Below are positions 7,387-64,000 of a DNA stretch of 64,000 nt, one piece after another; position 1 is the first letter of the stretch, and each line of letters opens with the position of its first letter. The notes under the pieces are model-generated. The model had not been told where the DNA came from, did not search any database, and worked only from the letters and a program-made list of their open reading frames with translations. The stretch lies in the IMG/VR virus record IMGVR_UViG_3300030419_006954, positions 1,933-65,932 of that record, one strand, 5' to 3'. A program made the translations under genes and the position numbers. Source of the DNA: a virus.

Positions 7387-8422
7387 AGAACAAAAAGAGT
7401 TTTTACGGGAAAACGCAGCTAGGGTTCCAAATTTGATTGATTTGACGCAACAGTGTTTTGATAGAAAGGACTTAGATGGTCGGTCGCGTGAAGGGAGAGC
7501 GGTAAGGAAGTTTTTAGCTGACAACGCTATTGACTATCAAACAACAAACCGCCCACCCGCCGAAACCATAGAGTTCACAAAAGAGCAAGTGGAGTTTATA
7601 CTGGATCAAGCTAAAGATGGCCTTTCGTCTTTGCAGATTGCAAGAATTGTTTTTCCTGATCGCCAAGTAAGACCTTTAAGTGCGGAACAAAGAGCCGTGC
7701 TCTCGGAAATCAGAGATGTTAATCCTGACATTTTACCATCTCAAGATAGTGGTGCGCTCAATTCATACATTTCTCCGAAGGCTCCTTCCCGAATCATCAA
7801 AAAAATCAATGATGCTACAGGGATAGGGCTGGAGGAGTCTAAAATTAACAGGCAGAAACAAATTTGTGTCGAAAAGTTAATGGTTAACCTGTCGAATTCA
7901 AGATTTCTCAAAATTATTAATAATTACCTCAATGAAGAAGACAGATTGTTGTTTGAGCATGAGTTTATACGCTTAACGTGGGATAAGCCTGATCTAACAG
8001 CCGACGAAATTAATTTATATTTAAATGTCTGTAAGGAGGTAATTAATTTGGAGGTGGTAAGCGCTCACCTTAACAAATTGAATGATATGTTCGATGTGGC
8101 CGACGAACAGGCAGAAATGTCTATACGTCTAGCGGAAATCATCAAAGCAAAGAGTTCGGAGTATCATCAATGCGAGACGCGCATCGAAAACCTTACAAAG
8201 AAGCTCCAAGGTGATCGCGGAGAAAGGATGAAGAAGATGCAGAAAGAAAACGCTTCGTTTCTTTCTATTGTCCAACTTTTTCAAGAAGAAGAGGAAAGAA
8301 AGACAATGGTAAGGATAGCTGAGATGCAAAAGGAAGTAGTGAAGCAGGAAGCTGAAAGATTGGAGGGAATGTCTGAGTGGAAAGCAAGGGTTTTAGGAAT
8401 TGGTCAACAAGATGTCTTATGA
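7373..8422 (+). CDS. putative small terminase subunit
   Basis: The 349-residue protein overlaps the sigma-like gene by 14 bases. Its N-terminal third has repeated short helix-turn-helix-like units (FTKEQVEFILDQAKDGLSSLQIARIVF, cut here for brevity, and SAEQRAVLSEIRDVNP). The second half is long, charged and coiled-coil-like (about 250-340). DNA-binding units plus an oligomerising helix, two genes upstream of the large terminase, fit a small terminase subunit, but no signature motif is seen. A general DNA-binding protein is the alternative. Confidence 0.4.
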   Translation: MDLSEEQKEFLRENAARVPNLIDLTQQCFDRKDLDGRSREGRAVRKFLADNAIDYQTTNRPPAETIEFTKEQVEFILDQAKDGLSSLQIARIVFPDRQVRPLSAEQRAVLSEIRDVNPDILPSQDSGALNSYISPKAPSRIIKKINDATGIGLEESKINRQKQICVEKLMVNLSNSRFLKIINNYLNEEDRLLFEHEFIRLTWDKPDLTADEINLYLNVCKEVINLEVVSAHLNKLNDMFDVADEQAEMSIRLAEIIKAKSSEYHQCETRIENLTKKLQGDRGERMKKMQKENASFLSIVQLFQEEEERKTMVRIAEMQKEVVKQEAERLEGMSEWKARVLGIGQQDVL

Positions 8423-9422
8423 TTGTAAAGAGTGTGGGGATTCATTTGGTTCCTTAAGGAGTCTACACGCACACATAAAAAAACATGGTAAATACCTTGG
8501 GGATTACTATGTGGAGAATTATGCCAGAAAAGATAAGCTTACAGGAGAACTTATTCCATTTAAAAAATACGATCAGTATTTCGCTACTGATTTCTTAAAA
8601 AAAGAAAATATGCAGGAATGGTGCGAAACCGCACCTCGGGATGAGGTCAAAAAATTTATTATAAAAATCTTTCGGAACAAGAAGAAAACCAAAAGGTTGT
8701 GGGGCGGTCCACCCTCGACTTATTTGCAAACGCTCGGCATTCCCGATATAGACACATGTAAAAAAGTTTTCGGTAGTTACAACGAAGCTTGTAAGCAATT
8801 TGGCATGTCGCCCATGCTCTCGGGGCAATTGCCAAATGACTTCAACAACGATTATTCAAATACCCCCATTCTCATAGATACTAGAGAGCAGAAGCCCCTG
8901 CATTTTAAGAATTCAGAGTCCCTTAAATTAGATGTGGGAGATTACGCTGTTGGGGGTGATTTATATGACTATACATTCGTGGATAGGAAGTCTTACCAGG
9001 ATTTCTGTGCGACAGTGACCAACGGTTATAACAGGTTTGTAAAAGAATTACTCAGGTGCAAATCTTTAGGTTGTTATCTGTTTGTGGTTGTTGAAGCTTC
9101 ATTCGATAACATAGAAGAGGAAAACAGAAGAGGATACAAGAAATACAACCTAGACTATGTATACCATATGATGCGACAGATTCAAGCTAAGTATTCTGAT
9201 TGCTGTCAATTTGTATTTAGCGGCTCACGGAAAAAAAGCGAAGAACTGATACCTAAGATTCTTGTTTCGGGGAAGCGTTTGTGGAGAGTGGACGTTCAAT
9301 ATTTTTGGAATAAACAACTTAAAAAAGATGGCTTGGCAAGAAGGAAAGCAAAAGCTCAACCGAGAGCACAGGGATATAAACCAACTAATTCTAGGCAAAG
9401 AGGGATATTTAGAGGAAACTGA
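8412..9422 (+). CDS. C2H2 zinc finger plus ERCC4/XPF-type nuclease
   Basis: From ATG 8412 (overlapping the previous stop by 11 bases) the product has 336 residues. Residues 5-25 form a classical C2H2 finger (Cys5, Cys8, His21, His25). The C-terminal half is an ERCC4-type nuclease: ILIDTREQ at 153-160, GDYAVGG at 176-182 and the DRK core at 191-193 (usual motif ERK). That family cuts branched or flapped DNA. Its place directly before the large terminase suggests a role in resolving DNA before packaging, which is inference. The final 95 bases overlap the start of the terminase gene. Confidence 0.75.
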   Translation: MSYDCKECGDSFGSLRSLHAHIKKHGKYLGDYYVENYARKDKLTGELIPFKKYDQYFATDFLKKENMQEWCETAPRDEVKKFIIKIFRNKKKTKRLWGGPPSTYLQTLGIPDIDTCKKVFGSYNEACKQFGMSPMLSGQLPNDFNNDYSNTPILIDTREQKPLHFKNSESLKLDVGDYAVGGDLYDYTFVDRKSYQDFCATVTNGYNRFVKELLRCKSLGCYLFVVVEASFDNIEEENRRGYKKYNLDYVYHMMRQIQAKYSDCCQFVFSGSRKKSEELIPKILVSGKRLWRVDVQYFWNKQLKKDGLARRKAKAQPRAQGYKPTNSRQRGIFRGN

Positions 9423-11193
9423 AGCAAAAGTATTGCTTTATAAATTTCTAAAAGAAAATCCTTCATTTGCTTGTGAATTGTTTACTGGTGTTAAGTTATT
9501 CCCGTTTCAGCATATGGCTATTAAGGCCATGATGGAGTCCGACTACTTCTTGGGCATATGGAGTCGGGGGATGTCTAAAAGCTTCTCTACGGGCATTTTC
9601 GCGCTCCTAGACGCTATTTTAAATCAGGGTGTCCAGATAGGTATTTTGTCGAAATCTTTTAGGCAGTCTAAAATGATCTTCAAGAAGATAGAGGATATCT
9701 CCAGAAGCCCTAAGGCCACATTTTTCTCCCAATGCATAACAAGGGTTTCTAAAATGAATGATGAGTGGATTATGGAGATCGGTCAAAGTAGTATAAGGGC
9801 TTTGCCTTTGGGGGATGGTGAAAAACTTAGGGGGTTTCGTTTCCAGCGCATGATTATTGATGAGTTGCTTCTGATGCCTGAAAAGATTTATAATGAGGTT
9901 ATTATTCCTTTCTTGTCTGTGGTGGAAAATCCTACCGAGCGCCAAGAGGTTTATGATCTAGAAACCCAAATGATTGAAAAGGGTAAAATGAAAGAGGAGG
10001 ATAGAAGAAAGTGGCCGAACAACAAAATTATTGGTTTGTCATCTGCCTCATATAAATTCGAATACCTTTATAAGATATATCAACAATATGAGAATCTCAT
10101 TCTAAATGAAAACGACCAAGATGGAGCACATAGGACTATTATGCACTTTAGTTACGATTGTGCGCCAGAACAACTATATGATCAAAATCTAATTAGTCAG
10201 TCGAAGGCGACGATGAGTGACTCCCAGTTTGAAAGGGAGTTTGGGGCTATATTTACAGATGATAGTTCAGGATATTTTAAGGTGAGCAAAATGGCAGCTT
10301 GCACAATACCAGATGGAGACGGTCAATGCGTCGAGGTGGTGGGCAACCCAAAAGATGAATATATTTTAGCTTTTGACCCCTCATGGTCTGAAAGCGAAAG
10401 TTCCGATGATTTTGCGATGTTGCTAATCAAGCTTAACAGAGACACAAGGAAGGGAACTGTTGTCCATAGCTATGCTTTATCAGGAGCTAATCTAAAAACT
10501 CACATAAAATATCTAGCCTACCTTTTGACTCACTTTAACATAGTAGCTATTGTGGGCGATTATAACGGAGGGGTTCAATTTATAAACTCTTGTAACGAGA
10601 GCGATATTTTTAAAAAAATAAATATTAAACTAGGCGTTATTGAGGCCAATTTAGATAAAGCACAAGATTATGAAAAAGATCTTCGCAAAATAAAAAATCA
10701 ATACAACCATAGCACAAAAAACATTGTATTTTTAAGAAAGCCAACTTCCCAGTGGATTAGAATTGCAAATGAGTCCTTACAGGCTGCTTTCGACCATAAA
10801 AGGATATTTTTCGCAGGGGCCGCGATGAATGATGATTATAATATTCAGCGTAAGTCCAGAGTGCCTATTAAAGATTTAAAGTTTTTAAGAAATGACCCAA
10901 ATGAAAAGGGGGGCGCGGGAGCTAGAATGATTGATTTCGTAGAGCATCAAAAAGATATGATGGATTTAATTAAAGTCCAATGTGCCCTTATACAAATTAC
11001 GACTTCTCTTCAGGGGACACAAAGTTTTGATCTTCCTCCTAACCTAAGAAAACAAAAAGGCGCAGACAAAGCTCGAAAAGATTCCTATTCTGCCTTGGTT
11101 TTAGGTAATTGGGCAATGAATGTTTTTTATGATATGGAGTCGGAGGATGTGGGCAACATACAAACAACCTTCACTCCAATGTTCATTTCTTAA
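9328..11193 (+). CDS. terL: large terminase subunit (packaging ATPase and nuclease)
   Basis: From ATG 9328 the product has 621 residues, a normal TerL size. The ATPase part has a Walker A variant SRGMSKS at 79-85 and Walker B MIIDE at 175-179. The nuclease part begins with ILAFDPSW (Asp350), with VGDYNGG further on. TerL drives DNA into the prohead through the portal and cuts it. The start overlaps the nuclease gene by 95 bases, unusually long; no later ATG occurs before residue 63 of this frame, so either the overlap is real or a non-ATG start is used. The portal gene follows. Confidence 0.9.
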   Translation: MAWQEGKQKLNREHRDINQLILGKEGYLEETEAKVLLYKFLKENPSFACELFTGVKLFPFQHMAIKAMMESDYFLGIWSRGMSKSFSTGIFALLDAILNQGVQIGILSKSFRQSKMIFKKIEDISRSPKATFFSQCITRVSKMNDEWIMEIGQSSIRALPLGDGEKLRGFRFQRMIIDELLLMPEKIYNEVIIPFLSVVENPTERQEVYDLETQMIEKGKMKEEDRRKWPNNKIIGLSSASYKFEYLYKIYQQYENLILNENDQDGAHRTIMHFSYDCAPEQLYDQNLISQSKATMSDSQFEREFGAIFTDDSSGYFKVSKMAACTIPDGDGQCVEVVGNPKDEYILAFDPSWSESESSDDFAMLLIKLNRDTRKGTVVHSYALSGANLKTHIKYLAYLLTHFNIVAIVGDYNGGVQFINSCNESDIFKKINIKLGVIEANLDKAQDYEKDLRKIKNQYNHSTKNIVFLRKPTSQWIRIANESLQAAFDHKRIFFAGAAMNDDYNIQRKSRVPIKDLKFLRNDPNEKGGAGARMIDFVEHQKDMMDLIKVQCALIQITTSLQGTQSFDLPPNLRKQKGADKARKDSYSALVLGNWAMNVFYDMESEDVGNIQTTFTPMFIS

Positions 11194-56784: not shown

Positions 56785-57131
56785 TGCCGAAGTCTAAAGG
56801 CCCGAATAAACGGGATATCATTTTTCGTCTTATAGAAGTCCCCGACAAAGGGAGGCGACCATTTTTCGCGAGGGAGATGAAGTTGCTTAACGATCTCTGT
56901 GATCGCTATTCTTTGGAGTTTATGGATATTGTGAACTTCGGCAAAAAGTTTGACTCTCTCGCTTATCTCGTTAGCGCGAAACTCAAGGACGCGCTGGATG
57001 AAAAGTTCAGAGCCTTCAATTTTAAGGTTGATTTATCCAAGTATGAAACCTATGATATAGGTGAGAAAATAGGCGAAGATGCGGTTATTTCGCAATCCCC
57101 CAAAACAATAAAAGATTTTTTAGATGAGTAA
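56784..57131 (+). CDS. unknown 115-residue protein before the recombinase
   Basis: GTG 56784 shares a base with the gmd stop codon and gives 115 residues (MPKSKGPNKRDIIFRLIEVP). A short segment (RPFFAREMKLLNDLCDRYSLEFM) looks helical. It overlaps the recombinase gene by eight bases and therefore probably belongs to the replication operon. No family is recognised. Confidence 0.5.
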   Translation: MPKSKGPNKRDIIFRLIEVPDKGRRPFFAREMKLLNDLCDRYSLEFMDIVNFGKKFDSLAYLVSAKLKDALDEKFRAFNFKVDLSKYETYDIGEKIGEDAVISQSPKTIKDFLDE

Positions 57132-58236
57132 AGAGATTCAACCACAAGAACTTCTTGGCAATTATTTGAAAGCGCACAAGGAAGACCACTATAATTTTGA
57201 AGACAGCATAGATTATAAAATTTCTAGCGGCTCTCTTCAATTTGATATGCATCTGGAGGGGGGCTTTGGACCTGGGCTGCATCGTTTCACAGGAGTCAAC
57301 GAAGGCGGCAAAACTTCAGAATCTTTACAGGTTATGAAAAACTTTCTGAAGGGACTCCCCAAATCACGGGGGTTATATGTAAAAGCGGAAGGGCGACTAG
57401 GGCCAGAGCTTCAAAAGCGTTCTGGCGTTAAGTTTGTTTTTTCTCCTGAAGAGTGGGTAGATGGAACTTGTTTTGTTTTTGAAAGCAATATTTATGAAAC
57501 AGTAATGGGTCTAATACGGCAACTCATTACTAATAATGAGGACAAGGTTAAATATTGTTTTATTTTAGATTCTGTGGACGGCTTAATCCGCAAAGACGAC
57601 TTAGACAAAAATTTCGAAGAGAGCACCAAGGTTGCTGGTGGTGCGGTTGTAGCCTCTAACTTCTGCAAGAAAACAAGCACTGCTCTGGGTAAGCGGGGGC
57701 ACATGGCTATTTTTATTAGTCAAGTCCGCGCCGACATTAAGCTTGATCCTTATTCCAAGGCTCCCGTGCGCCAAACTACAGCCACAGGAGGGAATGCCCT
57801 CTTACACTTTGCGAATAACATTATGGAGTTCGAACCCCGCTTTAAAGGGGATTTAATTTTGAAAAATCCCTCCGTTAAAACAGTGGACGCAAAGAAGAAT
57901 CCGATTATTGGTCATCATGCGAAAGTTACCATTAAAAAATCCGCTCACGAAAACACCAACACGACTCTTTCTTACCCTATTCGTTATGGGCGCATAGATG
58001 GCACCTCTATATGGGTGGAGAAGGAAATTGTAGATCTCCTCTATGCGTGGGAATTTGTGGAAAAGAAAGGCGCGTGGATTAAGCCTACCGATGATTTTAA
58101 GGAGCTGCTTGATTCCAATGGGTTTGGGTTTCCCGATAAAATTCAGGGCGACAACAATCTCTTTAAAACCATTGAAGATAACAAAGAATTGTCTGCATTT
58201 TTGATAGACTATTTCAAGGAACAGATAAATGCATGA
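57124..58236 (+). CDS. RecA/UvsX-like recombinase
   Basis: The 370-residue protein has a RecA-type ATPase core: Walker A GVNEGGKTS (57-65), Walker B YCFILDS with Asp149 near 144-150, then a GGAVVASNFCKKTSTALGKRG segment, FISQVRADI (L1-like) and TATGGNALLHFA (L2-like region, as in the TTTGGRALKFYASVRL of RecA). It would pair DNA strands in phage recombination or recombination-driven replication. It overlaps the next gene by four bases. Confidence 0.82.
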   Translation: MSKEIQPQELLGNYLKAHKEDHYNFEDSIDYKISSGSLQFDMHLEGGFGPGLHRFTGVNEGGKTSESLQVMKNFLKGLPKSRGLYVKAEGRLGPELQKRSGVKFVFSPEEWVDGTCFVFESNIYETVMGLIRQLITNNEDKVKYCFILDSVDGLIRKDDLDKNFEESTKVAGGAVVASNFCKKTSTALGKRGHMAIFISQVRADIKLDPYSKAPVRQTTATGGNALLHFANNIMEFEPRFKGDLILKNPSVKTVDAKKNPIIGHHAKVTIKKSAHENTNTTLSYPIRYGRIDGTSIWVEKEIVDLLYAWEFVEKKGAWIKPTDDFKELLDSNGFGFPDKIQGDNNLFKTIEDNKELSAFLIDYFKEQINA

Positions 58237-58640
58237 AGTTTATTGACTCATATGGCAAACAGAGAAATCTAAAGAACGCAAAGAAGTATTTAATAGATTG
58301 GGACAAGCCTAGCCGCAGCAAGTTCCAAACCCAAGTTAAAAGGTTTCTAAGAAGGTATTGGAAGAATGATATTGTGTTCGAAGAGTTTAGGGTCGTAGGC
58401 ACTCGCCTTACCTTAGACTTTTATAATGCCAATAAAAAGATAGCAGTTGAAGTTCAAGGAGCGCAGCACACAAAATTTGTTAAGTTTTTCCATAAAAATC
58501 GCTTCAAGTATAGAGAACAACTCAAAAGGGATGAAAAAAAGCTCGACTTTTGTAAAGCCAATGATATAAAGTTGGCAGAAGTTTATCCACAGGACAAAAT
58601 AGTAGCCTCATTATTCAAAAAACAGGATATTTATTTATGA
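58233..58640 (+). CDS. small PD-(D/E)XK-type endonuclease
   Basis: The 135-residue protein has a restriction-like nuclease core: RLTLDFYNANKKIAVEVQGAQH (residues 58-79, shortened to key residues LDFY, AVEVQG), where Asp62 and Glu73-x-Gln75 form the D...ExQ/K site, and an RDEKKLDFCKANDIKLAEVY helix-strand. This is the DUF559/Vsr-like layout. It lies between recombinase and helicase genes with four-base overlaps, so a repair or recombination role is likely. Confidence 0.6.
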   Translation: MKFIDSYGKQRNLKNAKKYLIDWDKPSRSKFQTQVKRFLRRYWKNDIVFEEFRVVGTRLTLDFYNANKKIAVEVQGAQHTKFVKFFHKNRFKYREQLKRDEKKLDFCKANDIKLAEVYPQDKIVASLFKKQDIYL

Positions 58641-58870
58641 ATTTAGAAGAAAATGACGAATTCTCTATCCCGTCTGAGATGGTAGAAAAAATTTACGAGC
58701 TGTCAGGAGGGGTGGATAAATATAAAGGTGTGATATTGGCGGTTTCTTCTGAAAATGGCAAACCTTTAATATATTGTAAATTTGATTGTGGGATGACTGA
58801 GTTTGCTTTAACTAAAGCTCTTGAAAACCATTTCACATCTCCTCTTGAAAGAAGGGAAGAAGACCGATGA
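58637..58870 (+). CDS. unknown 77-residue protein
   Basis: The 77-residue protein (MNLEENDEFSIPSEMVEKIY) is acidic at both ends with a short beta-rich centre (YKGVILAVSSENGKPLIYCKF). It overlaps both neighbours by four bases, so it is translated within the replication operon. A helicase-loader or adaptor role would be a guess; no family is recognised. Confidence 0.5.
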   Translation: MNLEENDEFSIPSEMVEKIYELSGGVDKYKGVILAVSSENGKPLIYCKFDCGMTEFALTKALENHFTSPLERREEDR

Positions 58871-60384
58871 TTTATAACTTTGAGCTAGAAAAGCAGCTAT
58901 TGGCAGGTTTGATTAAAGAGCCTGACACTCTGGCAGAAATATCCAATTTTATTGGCACCTCCGATTTTTATTCCAAGCAAAGCTCTTTGCACTCAGCTAT
59001 CTTCAGGATTGTTAAACAAGCTATAGATGCAGGAGATGAGGTAGACGAAGTTATTATAGCCCAAAGGGTTAACGACGTAGGGTTGTCATTTGAAGATAAT
59101 TTAAACCCCTCGGATTATATTAAATCTTTAGCCCTCAGGAAAGTCCCCAAAGGCAACACCCTCAAAACAGCTAAGGAATTAAAAAAATATTCAATCAGGC
59201 GCGAAATCTTGGATTCTTCTCAAGATATCGCCAAAAAGATGAAAAACATGGCTCCTGAGGCGTCCTATAGAGCCATTATAGAAGCCGCTGATTCCGCATA
59301 TAATTCCCGCATTAACCTCTACGAGATGGGCAATGACACGCCTGAAAATATTTACGAGGAAATGGAGGCTCTTATAGAAGAGCGCGGCAACAATCCCGTT
59401 ACAGAGTTCGGGATGATGGGTCCGCACCCTAAAGTCAACGAGATTTACGGCTCATTGCTCCGCGCAGGAAACATTACCGTTATAGTAGCCAGATCGGGAG
59501 TTGGTAAAACAAATTTCTGCATGGATTACAGCACGAAGGTGAGTCTCAAGTATGATGTTCCAGTTTTGCATTTTGATAATGGTGAGATGAGCAAAGAAGA
59601 GCTTATTATGCGCCAGTGCGCTGCCCTTTCAGGGGTCTCCATGCATCTACTGGAGAGTGGTAAATGGAGGCAAGCTGGCGAGAAAGTAGTAGATAAAGTC
59701 CGCTCGGTTTGGCCAGTGGTTAAAAACTTAAAATTTTATTATTATAACGTGGGAGGAATGGATGTAGACTCCATGGTTAATACTCTTAAAAGATTTTATT
59801 ATTCTAAGGTAGGTCGAGGCAAGTCGATGGTATTTTCCTTTGATTACATCAAAACCACCTCAGAAAATATCGCCAACAAGTCAGAGTGGCAGGTAGTGGG
59901 AGAGATGGTGGACAAGTTTAAGAAGTGTGTGCAGAAGGAAATTCTTCATGACGGGAATCCCGTTATTCCTATGATTACTTCTGTCCAGTCCAACAGATAC
60001 GGCATCACCAACAACAGAAACTCTCAAAACATTGTAGATGACGAGTCTATTGTTTCTCTTTCAGATCGCATCACCCAATTCTGTTCCCACATGTTCATTT
60101 TGCGGAACAAGACCACTGATGAGATAGAGACTGAAGGGGGCAGATTTGGCACCCATAAACTAATTAACGTCAAAGCCCGACATTTAGGGAGCGATATCGC
60201 TGGTGCCATTGAACCCGTTAGGATCGGAGATGCACTCCGCAAAAACTCTATAAATTTAGAATTTAATAATTTTAATATTGCAGAAAGGGGAGATTTGAGA
60301 GATATCGCGAGAATGCTCGATGGTGAAGAAGATTTAGATGGTGATGGAGCCCAACAAACAATCCCAGATTTCGATGAGTTCTGA
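58867..60384 (+). CDS. DnaB-like replicative helicase
   Basis: The 505-residue protein has the two-domain DnaB layout. The N-terminal helical domain (MIYNFELEKQLLAGLIKEPD to about 150) matches DnaB N. The RecA-like C-terminal domain has Walker A ARSGVGKTN (208-216), HFDNGEMSKEEL (the E of Walker-like H1a), FSFDYIKTT (Walker B) and SVQSNRYG (H3 region). Hexamers would unwind DNA at the phage fork. It overlaps the primase gene by 11 bases. Confidence 0.88.
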   Translation: MIYNFELEKQLLAGLIKEPDTLAEISNFIGTSDFYSKQSSLHSAIFRIVKQAIDAGDEVDEVIIAQRVNDVGLSFEDNLNPSDYIKSLALRKVPKGNTLKTAKELKKYSIRREILDSSQDIAKKMKNMAPEASYRAIIEAADSAYNSRINLYEMGNDTPENIYEEMEALIEERGNNPVTEFGMMGPHPKVNEIYGSLLRAGNITVIVARSGVGKTNFCMDYSTKVSLKYDVPVLHFDNGEMSKEELIMRQCAALSGVSMHLLESGKWRQAGEKVVDKVRSVWPVVKNLKFYYYNVGGMDVDSMVNTLKRFYYSKVGRGKSMVFSFDYIKTTSENIANKSEWQVVGEMVDKFKKCVQKEILHDGNPVIPMITSVQSNRYGITNNRNSQNIVDDESIVSLSDRITQFCSHMFILRNKTTDEIETEGGRFGTHKLINVKARHLGSDIAGAIEPVRIGDALRKNSINLEFNNFNIAERGDLRDIARMLDGEEDLDGDGAQQTIPDFDEF

Positions 60385-61408
60385 AGACTTCCAAGGTGTT
60401 CTGGAGTCGATAGGATACAATCTAATTGACTGTGGAGACCATTGGAGAACACAGGCTTTATATCGAGATGGTGACAACAAAACTGCTGTAAAGATTTACA
60501 AGAACACAGGTGTATGGATGGATTTCGTAGAGAACAAAGGGTCGATGCCTTTCGAAGCATTGATCCGCTTAACAGTCAAAGATGATAAACAAATAAAAGA
60601 GATCATTGGCAGCACCAAACTAGAAACTTCTACTCTTTATTCTCCAAAAGAAACAATAGAAATGGAAAAAATTTACCCCACATCCTCTCTAGACCGACTT
60701 TTCCCAAATTATAATTTTTATGAAAAAAGGGGTATTTCTAAAGACACCCAGCAAGCCTTTCAGGTTGGCTTGGCTGGAGTTGGCAAAATGTATAGGAGGA
60801 TGGTTTTCCCTGTCTTCAATGAACATGGCCAGATAATTGGCTTCTCTGGCAGGAAAGTAGATTCCAACAATGATTATCCCAAGTGGAAACACATTGGTAG
60901 ACGCAATAACTGGGTTTATCCCGCCTTGAACAAAAAGACGGGTGTAGACGAAGAAATAACAACACAAGAGCAAGTGGTTCTAGTAGAAAGCATAGGAGAT
61001 GCAATGGCATTGTATGAACAAGGTATTAAAAACGTTTTGGTTATTTTTGGTCTATCTGTTAACAATAATATCGTTAACTATCTTAGTGGTAAGCCTATTA
61101 ATCATATTTTTATTTCGACTAACAATGACGCGGCTAGTCAAGAAAATAGAGGCTTTATTGCGGCCATCAAAAGCTTCATAAAGCTTTCTAAGTATTTCGA
61201 CCTAGACAGGTTGACTGTAAAATTCCCCCCGAAACCCTATAATGATTTTGGTGACGCTCATTTGGCCGAATACGACCTTACTGCTTGGCTTGGCAAAGAT
61301 ATAGATAAAGCTGCACAACTAGATTACATCTTAGAGTTTGTTAGAAACAACCCATCTTGCTTCACTAAGAAAGAAATAAAAACATCCTTAATACTTAGTG
61401 ATGCCTGA
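60374..61408 (+). CDS. DNA primase, Toprim type
   Basis: ATG 60374 gives 344 residues. The protein lacks a clear zinc-binding start but has the rest of a DnaG-like core: residues 100-180 resemble the N-terminal RNA-polymerase part (FYEKRGISKDTQQAFQVG, then RRMVFPVFNEHGQIIGFSGR), and VVLVESIGDAMAL (201-213) is the Toprim motif, with Glu205. A second Toprim acidic strand (ISTNNDAASQENRG) follows. It would lay RNA primers with the DnaB-like helicase. Confidence 0.78.
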   Translation: MSSEDFQGVLESIGYNLIDCGDHWRTQALYRDGDNKTAVKIYKNTGVWMDFVENKGSMPFEALIRLTVKDDKQIKEIIGSTKLETSTLYSPKETIEMEKIYPTSSLDRLFPNYNFYEKRGISKDTQQAFQVGLAGVGKMYRRMVFPVFNEHGQIIGFSGRKVDSNNDYPKWKHIGRRNNWVYPALNKKTGVDEEITTQEQVVLVESIGDAMALYEQGIKNVLVIFGLSVNNNIVNYLSGKPINHIFISTNNDAASQENRGFIAAIKSFIKLSKYFDLDRLTVKFPPKPYNDFGDAHLAEYDLTAWLGKDIDKAAQLDYILEFVRNNPSCFTKKEIKTSLILSDA

Positions 61409-62426
61409 ACTCCAAACGCCGTTATCTGCTAGTAGAATAAAAACGGCGCAGTCGTGTTCATGGCTCTATTGGTGCAAGTATAAGCTAAAGCTACCAGACA
61501 GAAGTAATGACGGAGCCCGAAGAGGCTCTATTTGCCATTTAGTTTTTGAAGTTCTGGGGGTAAAGGGAAGGAAAAAATATTATAATAAAATAATAAAAAG
61601 CCAAGATGTTTTTGCTGTCCCTTCTATAAAGCGCCTTATTCTAAAACACGCTGTTAGGGAAGGCGTAGACGATTCTGAAAATGTAGAGCTGATGAAAGAT
61701 ATGATCTTCAATGGTCTTTCGTATGATTTTTTTGGCGATGATTTAGGAAAGCCTACAGAGGAATACTCAGAGAAGGATTTTGATATCATAAAAAATGATG
61801 GCAATATAAAATACAAAATAAGAGGCTTTATAGATAAGCTATTTTTATATAAGAAAAAGAAATTTGCTATAATACGAGACTTCAAGACGAGCAAAGAAGT
61901 CTTTAAAGGCAAAGACCAGACCGACAACCTGCAAGACCTCATGTATAGCCTTGCGGTTAAAAACCTGTTCCCCGAGTATTCTGAGAGAGTTAGCGAGTTT
62001 CTCTTCCTTAAGTTCGACTTAGACCCCGATGCAGCAAAATCAGGTGTTGTCCGCATGAAGGCTCTTGACGAGAACGAGTTAGAGGGTTTTGAAATGCAAC
62101 TCTCTGAGATACAAAAATATCTAGATAACTTTTCAGAAAAAAACGCTAAACAAAATTTTGCTCTTCACCAAGGATTTCCCAAAGACAACTCCTTTAGCGG
62201 GAAATTGCTATGTGGATTTGCCACAAAAAAGGGAGAGTTAAAAAAGGATGGCTCTCCCAAATGGCACTGCCCCATGAAGTTTGATTTTTTCTTTTATGAG
62301 GTTTGCAACTCTAATGGAGATGTTGTGAGGGCATATTTTGAGGATGAGTTCTCAGAAGATTTAGTCCCCGAGGGCGGTAGCTATGAGATGAAATATTATC
62401 AAGGTTGCCCCGCACATTCTTCTTGA
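61401..62426 (+). CDS. RecB/Cas4-like PD-(D/E)XK exonuclease
   Basis: ATG 61401 gives 341 residues. It has the RecB-family nuclease core: GSICHLVFEVL (40-50), GFIDKLFLYKKKKFAIIRDFKTSK (about 140-163; key residues GFIDK and DFKTSK) and NLQDLMYSLA. Cysteines in SCSWLYWC near 20-27 and in the C-terminal LLCGF, HCPMKF and QGCPAHSS could hold an iron-sulfur cluster as in Cas4/AddB, though the spacing is unusual. Role: end processing in recombination or replication. Confidence 0.75.
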   Translation: MPELQTPLSASRIKTAQSCSWLYWCKYKLKLPDRSNDGARRGSICHLVFEVLGVKGRKKYYNKIIKSQDVFAVPSIKRLILKHAVREGVDDSENVELMKDMIFNGLSYDFFGDDLGKPTEEYSEKDFDIIKNDGNIKYKIRGFIDKLFLYKKKKFAIIRDFKTSKEVFKGKDQTDNLQDLMYSLAVKNLFPEYSERVSEFLFLKFDLDPDAAKSGVVRMKALDENELEGFEMQLSEIQKYLDNFSEKNAKQNFALHQGFPKDNSFSGKLLCGFATKKGELKKDGSPKWHCPMKFDFFFYEVCNSNGDVVRAYFEDEFSEDLVPEGGSYEMKYYQGCPAHSS

Positions 62427-62457: not shown

Positions 62458-63195
62458 ATGACTCCAGTATTCAAGTCAACCTATTCTATCGGGAAGAGTA
62501 TTCTAACTCTGGATAAGGAAGGGACGGAGGACGGTCCAGATAGCATCATTGAGATGTGCGAAGAAAACTCTATCAAGTCTCTTGTGCTTGTAGAGGACTC
62601 CATGACAGGATTTGTGACTGCCCACAATCGCTGCAAAGAGGCTGGGATTGATTTAGTCTTTGGATTAAGAATTACCTGCTGCAATGACACTTATGATGAT
62701 GATGACTCTGATCACAAGATTATAATTTTTGCCAAGAACGATGAGGGGTGCCGCTTACTCTATCGAATTTATTCATACGCCCACACAGGGCAAAACGGCA
62801 AAGTAGATTTTGCGTTTCTCTTCAGCCTTTGGAATGAGAACATTGAATTAGTTATTCCTTTTTATGATTCTTTTATATATAATAATAACTTTCACTTCAA
62901 AAAGTGTGTCCCCGATTTCTCCACCATACTCCCGACTTTTTGGCTGGAAGCGAACGACTTACCCTTCGATGGATTGTTAGCTGAGAAGGTATTAAAGTTC
63001 GCCCAAGGAATGATGAGGCCAGTTAAGCGGGTAAAAACTATTCTATATAAAAACAGAGACGATGCTGAAGCTCTTCAAACTTACAAGATTCTCTGTAACC
63101 GAAATTTTGGCAGAGCCGCCTCTTTAAGTAGTCCTAACCTTAATCACTTCGGCAGCAAGGAGTTCTGCCTTGAATCTTATTTGCAATATGAATGA
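62458..63195 (+). CDS. stand-alone PHP-domain part of DNA polymerase III alpha
   Basis: The 245-residue protein resembles the N-terminal PHP domain of DnaE. SIIEMCEENSIKSLVLVEDSM with GFVTAHNRCKEAGIDLVFGLRI matches the DnaE pattern (TDHGN.fGavefykac..aGIkpiiG), and the end, DAEALQTYKILCNRN to KEFCLESYLQYE, matches the region just after PHP (…eFylks.eem). The metal-binding His of active PHP domains (HxHxxxS) are absent (FKSTYSIGKS), so it is probably structural. The polymerase core is encoded separately at 63817. Confidence 0.7.
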   Translation: MTPVFKSTYSIGKSILTLDKEGTEDGPDSIIEMCEENSIKSLVLVEDSMTGFVTAHNRCKEAGIDLVFGLRITCCNDTYDDDDSDHKIIIFAKNDEGCRLLYRIYSYAHTGQNGKVDFAFLFSLWNENIELVIPFYDSFIYNNNFHFKKCVPDFSTILPTFWLEANDLPFDGLLAEKVLKFAQGMMRPVKRVKTILYKNRDDAEALQTYKILCNRNFGRAASLSSPNLNHFGSKEFCLESYLQYE

Positions 63196-63820
63196 GTCAT
63201 TACTTAGATTTAACAAAAAGCAAAGATATCTTGTTTTTGACACTGAGACGGAGGGGTTGAATTTAGTTACCTCTAGGCCGTGGCAAATCGCTTGGTTGGT
63301 AGTGGAGGGAGACACAATTCTTTCGCGTCATGACAAGTTTATAGATTGGCCTGACTTAAACGTTTCTGAAGGTGCAGCCAAAGTCACAGGCTTTTCTCGC
63401 AAAGAGTATGAAAAGAAAGCCGAAGCTCCCGACCAAGTGTGGTGCCAATTTTCTGCCCAACTTTATAATGAAGACAACTTAGTTATCGGGCAGAACCTTT
63501 TGGGCTTTGATGTTTACATAATTAATGTGTGGCGCAAATTGATGGGTATGCAAAGTGATTACTCTTTTGTAAACAGAATTATAGACACTAAATCCTTGGC
63601 GACAGCTATTGCTAAACAAATCCCCGTAGAGAAGCAGAACTTTCTACCTTGGCAGTATAGGTTGCTAAACTACAGGGAAAGAGGCTTAAAAACCTCTCAA
63701 GCTACTCTTCTGAAAAAATACAGCATCCCCCACGATCCGAAGAGGCTCCACGATGCCCTCTATGATATTGAAATGAATTTTAAGGTTTTTCGCAAGCAGC
63801 TTTTTGAGTTGGAGATATGA
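63188..63820 (+). CDS. DnaQ-like 3'-5' exonuclease (proofreading)
   Basis: ATG 63188 overlaps the PHP stop by eight bases and gives 210 residues. It is a DEDDh exonuclease: FDTETEG with Asp18 and Glu20, QNLLGFD with Asp108, and LHDALYDIE with His188 and Asp193. It matches the epsilon subunit of DNA polymerase III. Its stop overlaps the polymerase start codon (ATGA), so PHP, exonuclease and core are co-translated and may assemble into one enzyme. Confidence 0.88.
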   Translation: MNESLLRFNKKQRYLVFDTETEGLNLVTSRPWQIAWLVVEGDTILSRHDKFIDWPDLNVSEGAAKVTGFSRKEYEKKAEAPDQVWCQFSAQLYNEDNLVIGQNLLGFDVYIINVWRKLMGMQSDYSFVNRIIDTKSLATAIAKQIPVEKQNFLPWQYRLLNYRERGLKTSQATLLKKYSIPHDPKRLHDALYDIEMNFKVFRKQLFELEI

Positions 63821-64000
63821 ATTCTACTAAATATACAGGCTATAAAACCCCTTTTCCTGTGGGGGTTAAGCTGCCAGAAATCAAAATTGAAAAAAAATAT
63901 TACGAAGAGGTCTCTTGCGTAGACCTGGAAGATAACTTCCAATTCCTCAGGAAGCTATGCTTCAAAAGGGTCAAAGAAAAAGGCATAGACCAACTGGAGA
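63817..64000 (+). CDS. dnaE: DNA polymerase III alpha core, partial, runs off the right edge
   Basis: ATG 63817 opens a frame to the window end (61 residues). It has the pattern seen just after the PHP domain in DnaE: GVKLPEIKIEKKYYEE, then a short acidic gap and NFQFLRKLCFKRVKEKG, matching lPeFxxPexxxxxxYLRxLcxeGlxxRyG. This supports a polymerase core starting at the exact place where the PHP protein ends. Only the first few percent is visible. Confidence 0.6.
   Translation, partial: MNSTKYTGYKTPFPVGVKLPEIKIEKKYYEEVSCVDLEDNFQFLRKLCFKRVKEKGIDQLE

Follow-up and report, generated by a model that had tools for sequence, protein, structure and literature searches.

Does a virus in which the PHP domain, a proofreading exonuclease and the catalytic core of DNA polymerase III alpha (Pol III alpha) are encoded by three successive genes build its replicase from three separate proteins, or has the PHP part left the polymerase, is the arrangement an intermediate on the way to PolC, is a fused chain made after all, or is the split an error? 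The question is raised by a 64,000-base stretch of viral DNA (hereafter the window), corresponding to bases 1933-65932 of a virus record of 95,565 bases (95.6 kb), whose relevant features are collected in Table 1.

Table 1. Features at the polymerase locus and upstream of it, in window coordinates.
Feature	Position	Strand	Supporting match
RecA/UvsX-like recombinase, upstream neighbour	57124..58236	+	phrog_97 7.4e-33
DnaB-like replicative helicase, upstream neighbour	58867..60384	+	DnaB_C 2.4e-13, phrog_19 1.6e-37
DnaG-like/Toprim primase, upstream neighbour	60338..61408	+	phrog_47 5.5e-23, DNAG_N 4.3e-8
PD-(D/E)XK nuclease, upstream neighbour	61398..62426	+	PDDEXK_1 7.5e-14
PHP stand-alone protein (245 aa)	62458..63195	+	Pfam PHP 2.4e-6
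DnaQ-like DEDDh 3'-5' exonuclease (210 aa)	63188..63820	+	RNase_T 8.5e-16
Pol III alpha core, first part	63817..64000, continues outside the window	+	DNA_pol3_alpha 2.6e-61, finger 6.1e-28, HHH_6 3.3e-18

The three genes lie where a first-pass annotation had placed them, and the overlaps that it reported, 8 bases between PHP and DnaQ and 4 bases between DnaQ and the core, are borne out by the sequence. The core starts with the ATG at 63817 and DnaQ with the family-supported ATG at 63188, the TTG at 63170 given in the ORF list being upstream of it and not the start used in the family. Beyond the window edge the core gene continues to a stop at contig position 68304 (whole gene L002:5749-8304). 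Genes for a recombinase, a helicase, a primase and a nuclease precede the trio on the same strand, and the region is therefore a replication cluster. A small ORF between the RecA-like and DnaB-like genes (window 58233-58640) resembles homing/HNH endonuclease families (phrog_559, 2.9e-14), and a ClpA/ClpB-like AAA+ gene is located directly 3' of the core (L002:8316-10745, contig 68316-70745; phrog_4871, 2e-207).

Once the contig was extended, the third gene proved to encode a complete core of 851 aa with palm, thumb, fingers, HhH and C-terminal OB domains; it is DnaE-like over its whole length, which removes the initial doubt that the likeness might end at residue 61. Its catalytic triad (D160, D162 and D311) is intact and, together with K309 and D164, invariant in 60/60 sequences. 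Among NCBIfam models the core matches DnaE (TIGR00594, 1.6e-138) far better than polC (1.1e-11), and a profile search of PDB structures gave values of up to 2e-219 for DnaE and about 1e-22 for PolC. The AlphaFold2 model (pLDDT 86.4) was aligned to residues 269-910 of E. coli alpha (2hnh), 283-1122 of Taq alpha and from 298 onwards of the M. tuberculosis protein; in the longer of these structures the alignment also takes in the OB fold. The OB fold occupies model residues 742-842, C-terminal to the HhH (E. coli 950-1074 matched by profile), and the chain stops about 9 residues past it, at residue 851, the small C-terminal domain that follows the OB being missing. The position equivalent to the clamp-binding QADMF of E. 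coli is variable, with L/I/M and then M/F/I. By both profile and model, the protein is the core of a DnaE-type (C-family) Pol III alpha.

The profile of the PHP protein matched PDB sequences weakly (best E 0.035), and its identity was settled by structure comparison. Its AlphaFold2 model (pLDDT 89.8) superimposed on residues 6-247 of E. coli alpha and 7-258 of Taq alpha with Z 20-21 over 224-225 residues (VIA-align), as compared with Z 11.6 at most for non-polymerase PHP proteins, and a comparison with the bacterial DnaE PHP by hhalign gave E 3.7e-12. The metal site of active PHP domains comprises nine residues (HHDHEH[C/H]DH), seven of which could be mapped onto the protein, with the C/H position unplaced. 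In place of the expected H, D, H, E, H, D and H, the window protein has K6, K13, D47, R71, K87, S/T194 and Y/L196, and the 69 sequences of the family have K/T/R, K/R, D/N, R/K, K (69/69), S/T and Y/L/F; residues other than those of an active PHP nuclease thus stand at the seven mapped positions in nearly all 69. Judged by these positions, no metal site remains, and the gene product is a complete N-terminal DnaE-type PHP domain devoid of its metal ligands. The fold (Z 21) and the substitution of every mapped ligand agree with what the first-pass annotation had proposed for this gene.

That annotation had also placed the end of the PHP protein where the palm normally joins. In the predicted structures the split falls exactly at the boundary between the PHP and palm domains, because the PHP model reaches E. 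coli 247 / Taq 258 and the alignment of the core model picks up at E. coli 269 / Taq 283. Neither protein has the linker of about 21-25 residues in between (E. coli 248-268), and interface contacts would have to compensate for its loss.

The middle gene was correctly recognised as a DEDDh exonuclease: D18, E20, D108, H188 and D193 are unchanged across 41 family sequences, leaving the catalytic set intact. Since only 17 residues follow the last catalytic Asp (D193 of 210 aa), the protein is without an epsilon-type C-terminal tail. In E. coli it is the C-terminal tail of epsilon that binds PHP (PMC3666897, PMC3919608); with this element absent, the tether of the viral DnaQ would have to be different. 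The gene neighbourhood suggests that DnaQ could serve as a proofreading subunit bound to Pol III alpha.

To learn how general the arrangement is, IMG/VR was scanned with each of the three proteins and then with progressively more distant members, the best 80 matches being retained in each scan. At least 312 loci were found, at least 286 of them with all three genes; the remaining 26 were fragments in every case inspected. In all 286 complete loci, with 161 distinct cores among them and identity falling to about 54%, the three genes share a strand and follow the order PHP, DnaQ, core. PHP has its own gene in 286/286, and is fused to the core in none. The gap between PHP and DnaQ varies between -43 and +1835 bases and falls in each of the three relative frames, and that between DnaQ and the core lies between -19 and +1216 bases; the order of the trio is stable although its junctions vary. 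The junctions are hot spots for insertions (L212, L208, L008, L011), the inserts including a SET domain, an IMPDH/GMP reductase-like gene, an FkbM methyltransferase and a mannose-6-phosphate isomerase-type cupin. Bacterial relatives, among the best 80 listed, reach at most 33% identity in the best segment; in 76 of these 80 the core and a PHP-sized region ahead of it form one chain, and the remaining 4 are truncated at a contig end. The search for fused intermediates covered the best 80 matches per scan, and any whose identity lies between 33% and 54% may have escaped it.

All three genes are under strong purifying selection, with median dN/dS values in close pairs of 0.063 for PHP (omega about 0.06), 0.035 for DnaQ and 0.028 for the core. 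Twelve related contigs of 95-211 kb, which are possibly fragments, have exactly one PF07733 match apiece; a search of them for Pol A, Pol B, a second DnaE and the beta clamp found nothing. The viruses form a large, uncultured group whose genes match those of bacteriophages. A search of annotated phages with PHP gave no matches.

We consider it likely that the trio specifies the polymerase with which a large clade of uncultured tailed phages replicates its DNA, and that this enzyme is a DnaE-type alpha, split once and made up of a core, a docked PHP scaffold and a proofreading DnaQ. The split would have happened in the common ancestor of the clade, at the PHP/palm boundary. The 851-aa palm-thumb-fingers-HhH-OB core would carry out synthesis, and the detached, metal-free PHP (about 245 aa) would be a structural scaffold that docks non-covalently, in trans, against the core on its palm side, at the position that PHP occupied in the fused ancestor. 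DnaQ would act as an active proofreading exonuclease kept beside the core either by the PHP subunit or directly. Assembly of the three proteins into one enzyme, the requirement for PHP in it and the site at which DnaQ would bind are inferred. This is the three-piece polymerase that the first-pass annotation had put forward as one of two options, and it is well supported by the conserved trio, the complementary folds, the intact polymerase and exonuclease residues, the purifying selection and the lack of any further recognisable polymerase in the related contigs. For the E. coli enzyme, mutating the degenerate metal site of PHP makes the entire Pol III less stable and less active, and the PHP domain is also bound by epsilon (PMC3666897). 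It is tempting to go further and to speculate that PHP is an independent, dissociable subunit and that these phages could assemble, regulate or exchange polymerase and tail-less proofreading modules, giving a modular C-family replicase, a possibility that we put forward only tentatively.

The reading that best survives beside this one, which we regard as improbable, holds that PHP has left the polymerase, with the core working alone or with DnaQ and PHP taking a separate role such as the binding of nucleic acid or host factors. PHP evolves about twice as fast as the core (dN/dS 0.063 vs 0.028), genes may be inserted between it and DnaQ or the core, and the linker helix is missing. However, not one of the 286 complete loci has lost PHP, which always lies upstream of DnaQ and the core, and its fold is nearest to polymerase PHP domains (Z 21 vs at most 11.6 for others). 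Moreover, the PHP domain has been described as universal among C-family polymerases (PMC12926913).

The other option of the first-pass annotation, a PolC relic or intermediate in which the exonuclease gene has been caught between the PHP and polymerase parts, did not hold up and seems to us very unlikely. It was suggested by the gene order PHP, exonuclease, core, and the DnaQ of the window is in keeping with it, its first NCBIfam match being the PolC exonuclease model at 2.7e-10, about equal to the score of the epsilon model (2.9e-9), and its best PDB match the PolC exonuclease of T. maritima; the DnaQ proteins of other family members, in contrast, prefer epsilon models. The core, furthermore, is matched by DnaE (1e-138 to 1e-219) and only weakly by PolC (about 1e-11 to 1e-22), and has its OB fold at the C-terminal side, where PolC would have an N-terminal OB and a PolC-type core. 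Nor is the exonuclease inside PHP: the PHP model spans E. coli 6-247 with complete C-terminal elements, and the exonuclease gene starts at the PHP stop codon. In a FastTree tree of 728 core columns, for which alone the matched pieces of Alicyclobacillus phage KKP_3916 and Tenacibaculum phage Larrie were joined end to end, the split sequences were monophyletic (support 1.0, stem 1.46) and nested within phage DnaEs. Their nearest neighbours were KKP_3916 and Brevibacillus phage Sundance (support 0.64), in both of which PHP is fused. The split looks derived because the phage DnaEs among which this monophyletic clade is placed have PHP fused, and it is best read as one derived event with a single origin. 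We rejected the PolC intermediate on the type of the core, the places of its OB fold and of the exonuclease, and the tree.

Still less credit can be given to a fused polypeptide that would arise from programmed frameshifting, from readthrough or by protein trans-splicing, even if short overlaps (-4, -8, -11, -20) are common among the members. All three relative frames occur, non-homologous genes of up to 1.8 kb sit in either junction, and an intein/Hint domain is absent among the Pfam matches of the three window proteins. The order is stable while the junctions vary, and fusion by frameshifting is therefore ruled out; varying frames, inserted genes and the lack of an intein match were our grounds for rejecting frameshift, readthrough and intein alike. 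As for a sequencing or assembly error, which the first-pass annotation had envisaged as restoring a continuous frame, or a decayed gene, the chance is negligible: the same split is present in each of the 286 complete loci, in three frames and with inserted genes, and therefore cannot be a sequencing error. Error and decay alike are contradicted by the 161 distinct cores in which it was seen, on many independent contigs, and by the strong purifying selection on all three genes.

Having favoured a DnaE-type alpha in three pieces, we can compare it with known systems. The bacterial DnaE1-type alpha with epsilon (E. coli DnaE and DnaQ; Taq DnaE) has the same domains in the same order, PHP-palm-thumb-fingers-HhH-OB, and in E. 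coli an inactive PHP likewise accompanies a separate DEDDh exonuclease. Unlike in bacterial DnaE1, the phage PHP is a protein of its own, the linker is gone and there is no small C-terminal domain after the OB fold; the phage DnaQ is short and tail-less, and the proteins share at most 33% identity with the listed bacterial homologues. PolC, the replicase of Gram-positive bacteria, encodes PHP, a DEDDh exonuclease and the core in the same order, but as one chain with the exonuclease inside PHP and an N-terminal OB, in contrast to the three chains and DnaE-type core of the phage system. Group 2.2 jumbo phages divide a minimal Pol III alpha among separate genes, and its parts are presumed to reconstitute; these are only the NTP-binding and DNA-binding parts, encoded by distant genes beside a family B polymerase (PMC7824862), whereas here the full PHP, core and DnaQ are clustered and no DNA_pol_B match occurs in the 12 possibly fragmentary contigs. 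The Cbastvirus Larrie (ON950054) also has DnaE in two neighbouring genes, but there the break is within the palm and separates FERFLN from PDIDSDF; PHP remains attached to the part of the palm that comes first, and no DnaQ lies in between. The cyanobacterial DnaE split by an intein comes from two genes too, but with a different break point; in the phage proteins there is no intein/Hint and covalent joining is not expected.

Split phage Pol III alphas have already been reported; the separate PHP and the trio arrangement, which appear to be new, are widespread. No description of a separate PHP protein or of a PHP-DnaQ-core trio was found in the open-licence literature, although an earlier one is possible. 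Surveys state that PHP is part of the chain in every C-family polymerase, and it is kept even when inactive. A natural enzyme with a separate, metal-free PHP allows the reason for this to be tested directly. The clade also adds an abundant viral lineage whose only replicase appears to be Pol III alpha, the records being possibly fragments.

Several further phage records bear on DnaE. Some labelled as phage (MT835501, MT837297, MT835750, OR846923 and OR849058; L147, L151, L268, L267 and L407) resemble bacterial chromosome contigs, with dnaE beside a phosphofructokinase-like or a tryptophanyl-tRNA synthetase-like gene and PolC beside a prolyl-tRNA synthetase-like gene; such MT83xxxx/OR84xxxx records were excluded as phage evidence but inflate tblastn counts. 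In Larrie the two DnaE genes are at L408:5843-7390 and 7393-9423, the last 50 or so residues of the N-terminal part are unmatched and no intein family match was obtained. Cellulophaga phage phiST has a 525-aa DnaE fragment on record. KKP_3916 (OQ846916, L146:3068-9694) has DnaE matches over four ORFs in about 6.6 kb, annotated as hypothetical proteins, a scattered pattern as expected from introns or inserted genes. PF07733 is frequent in PGC_A, a cluster of marine jumbo phages (PMC9123017), which may include the split lineage.
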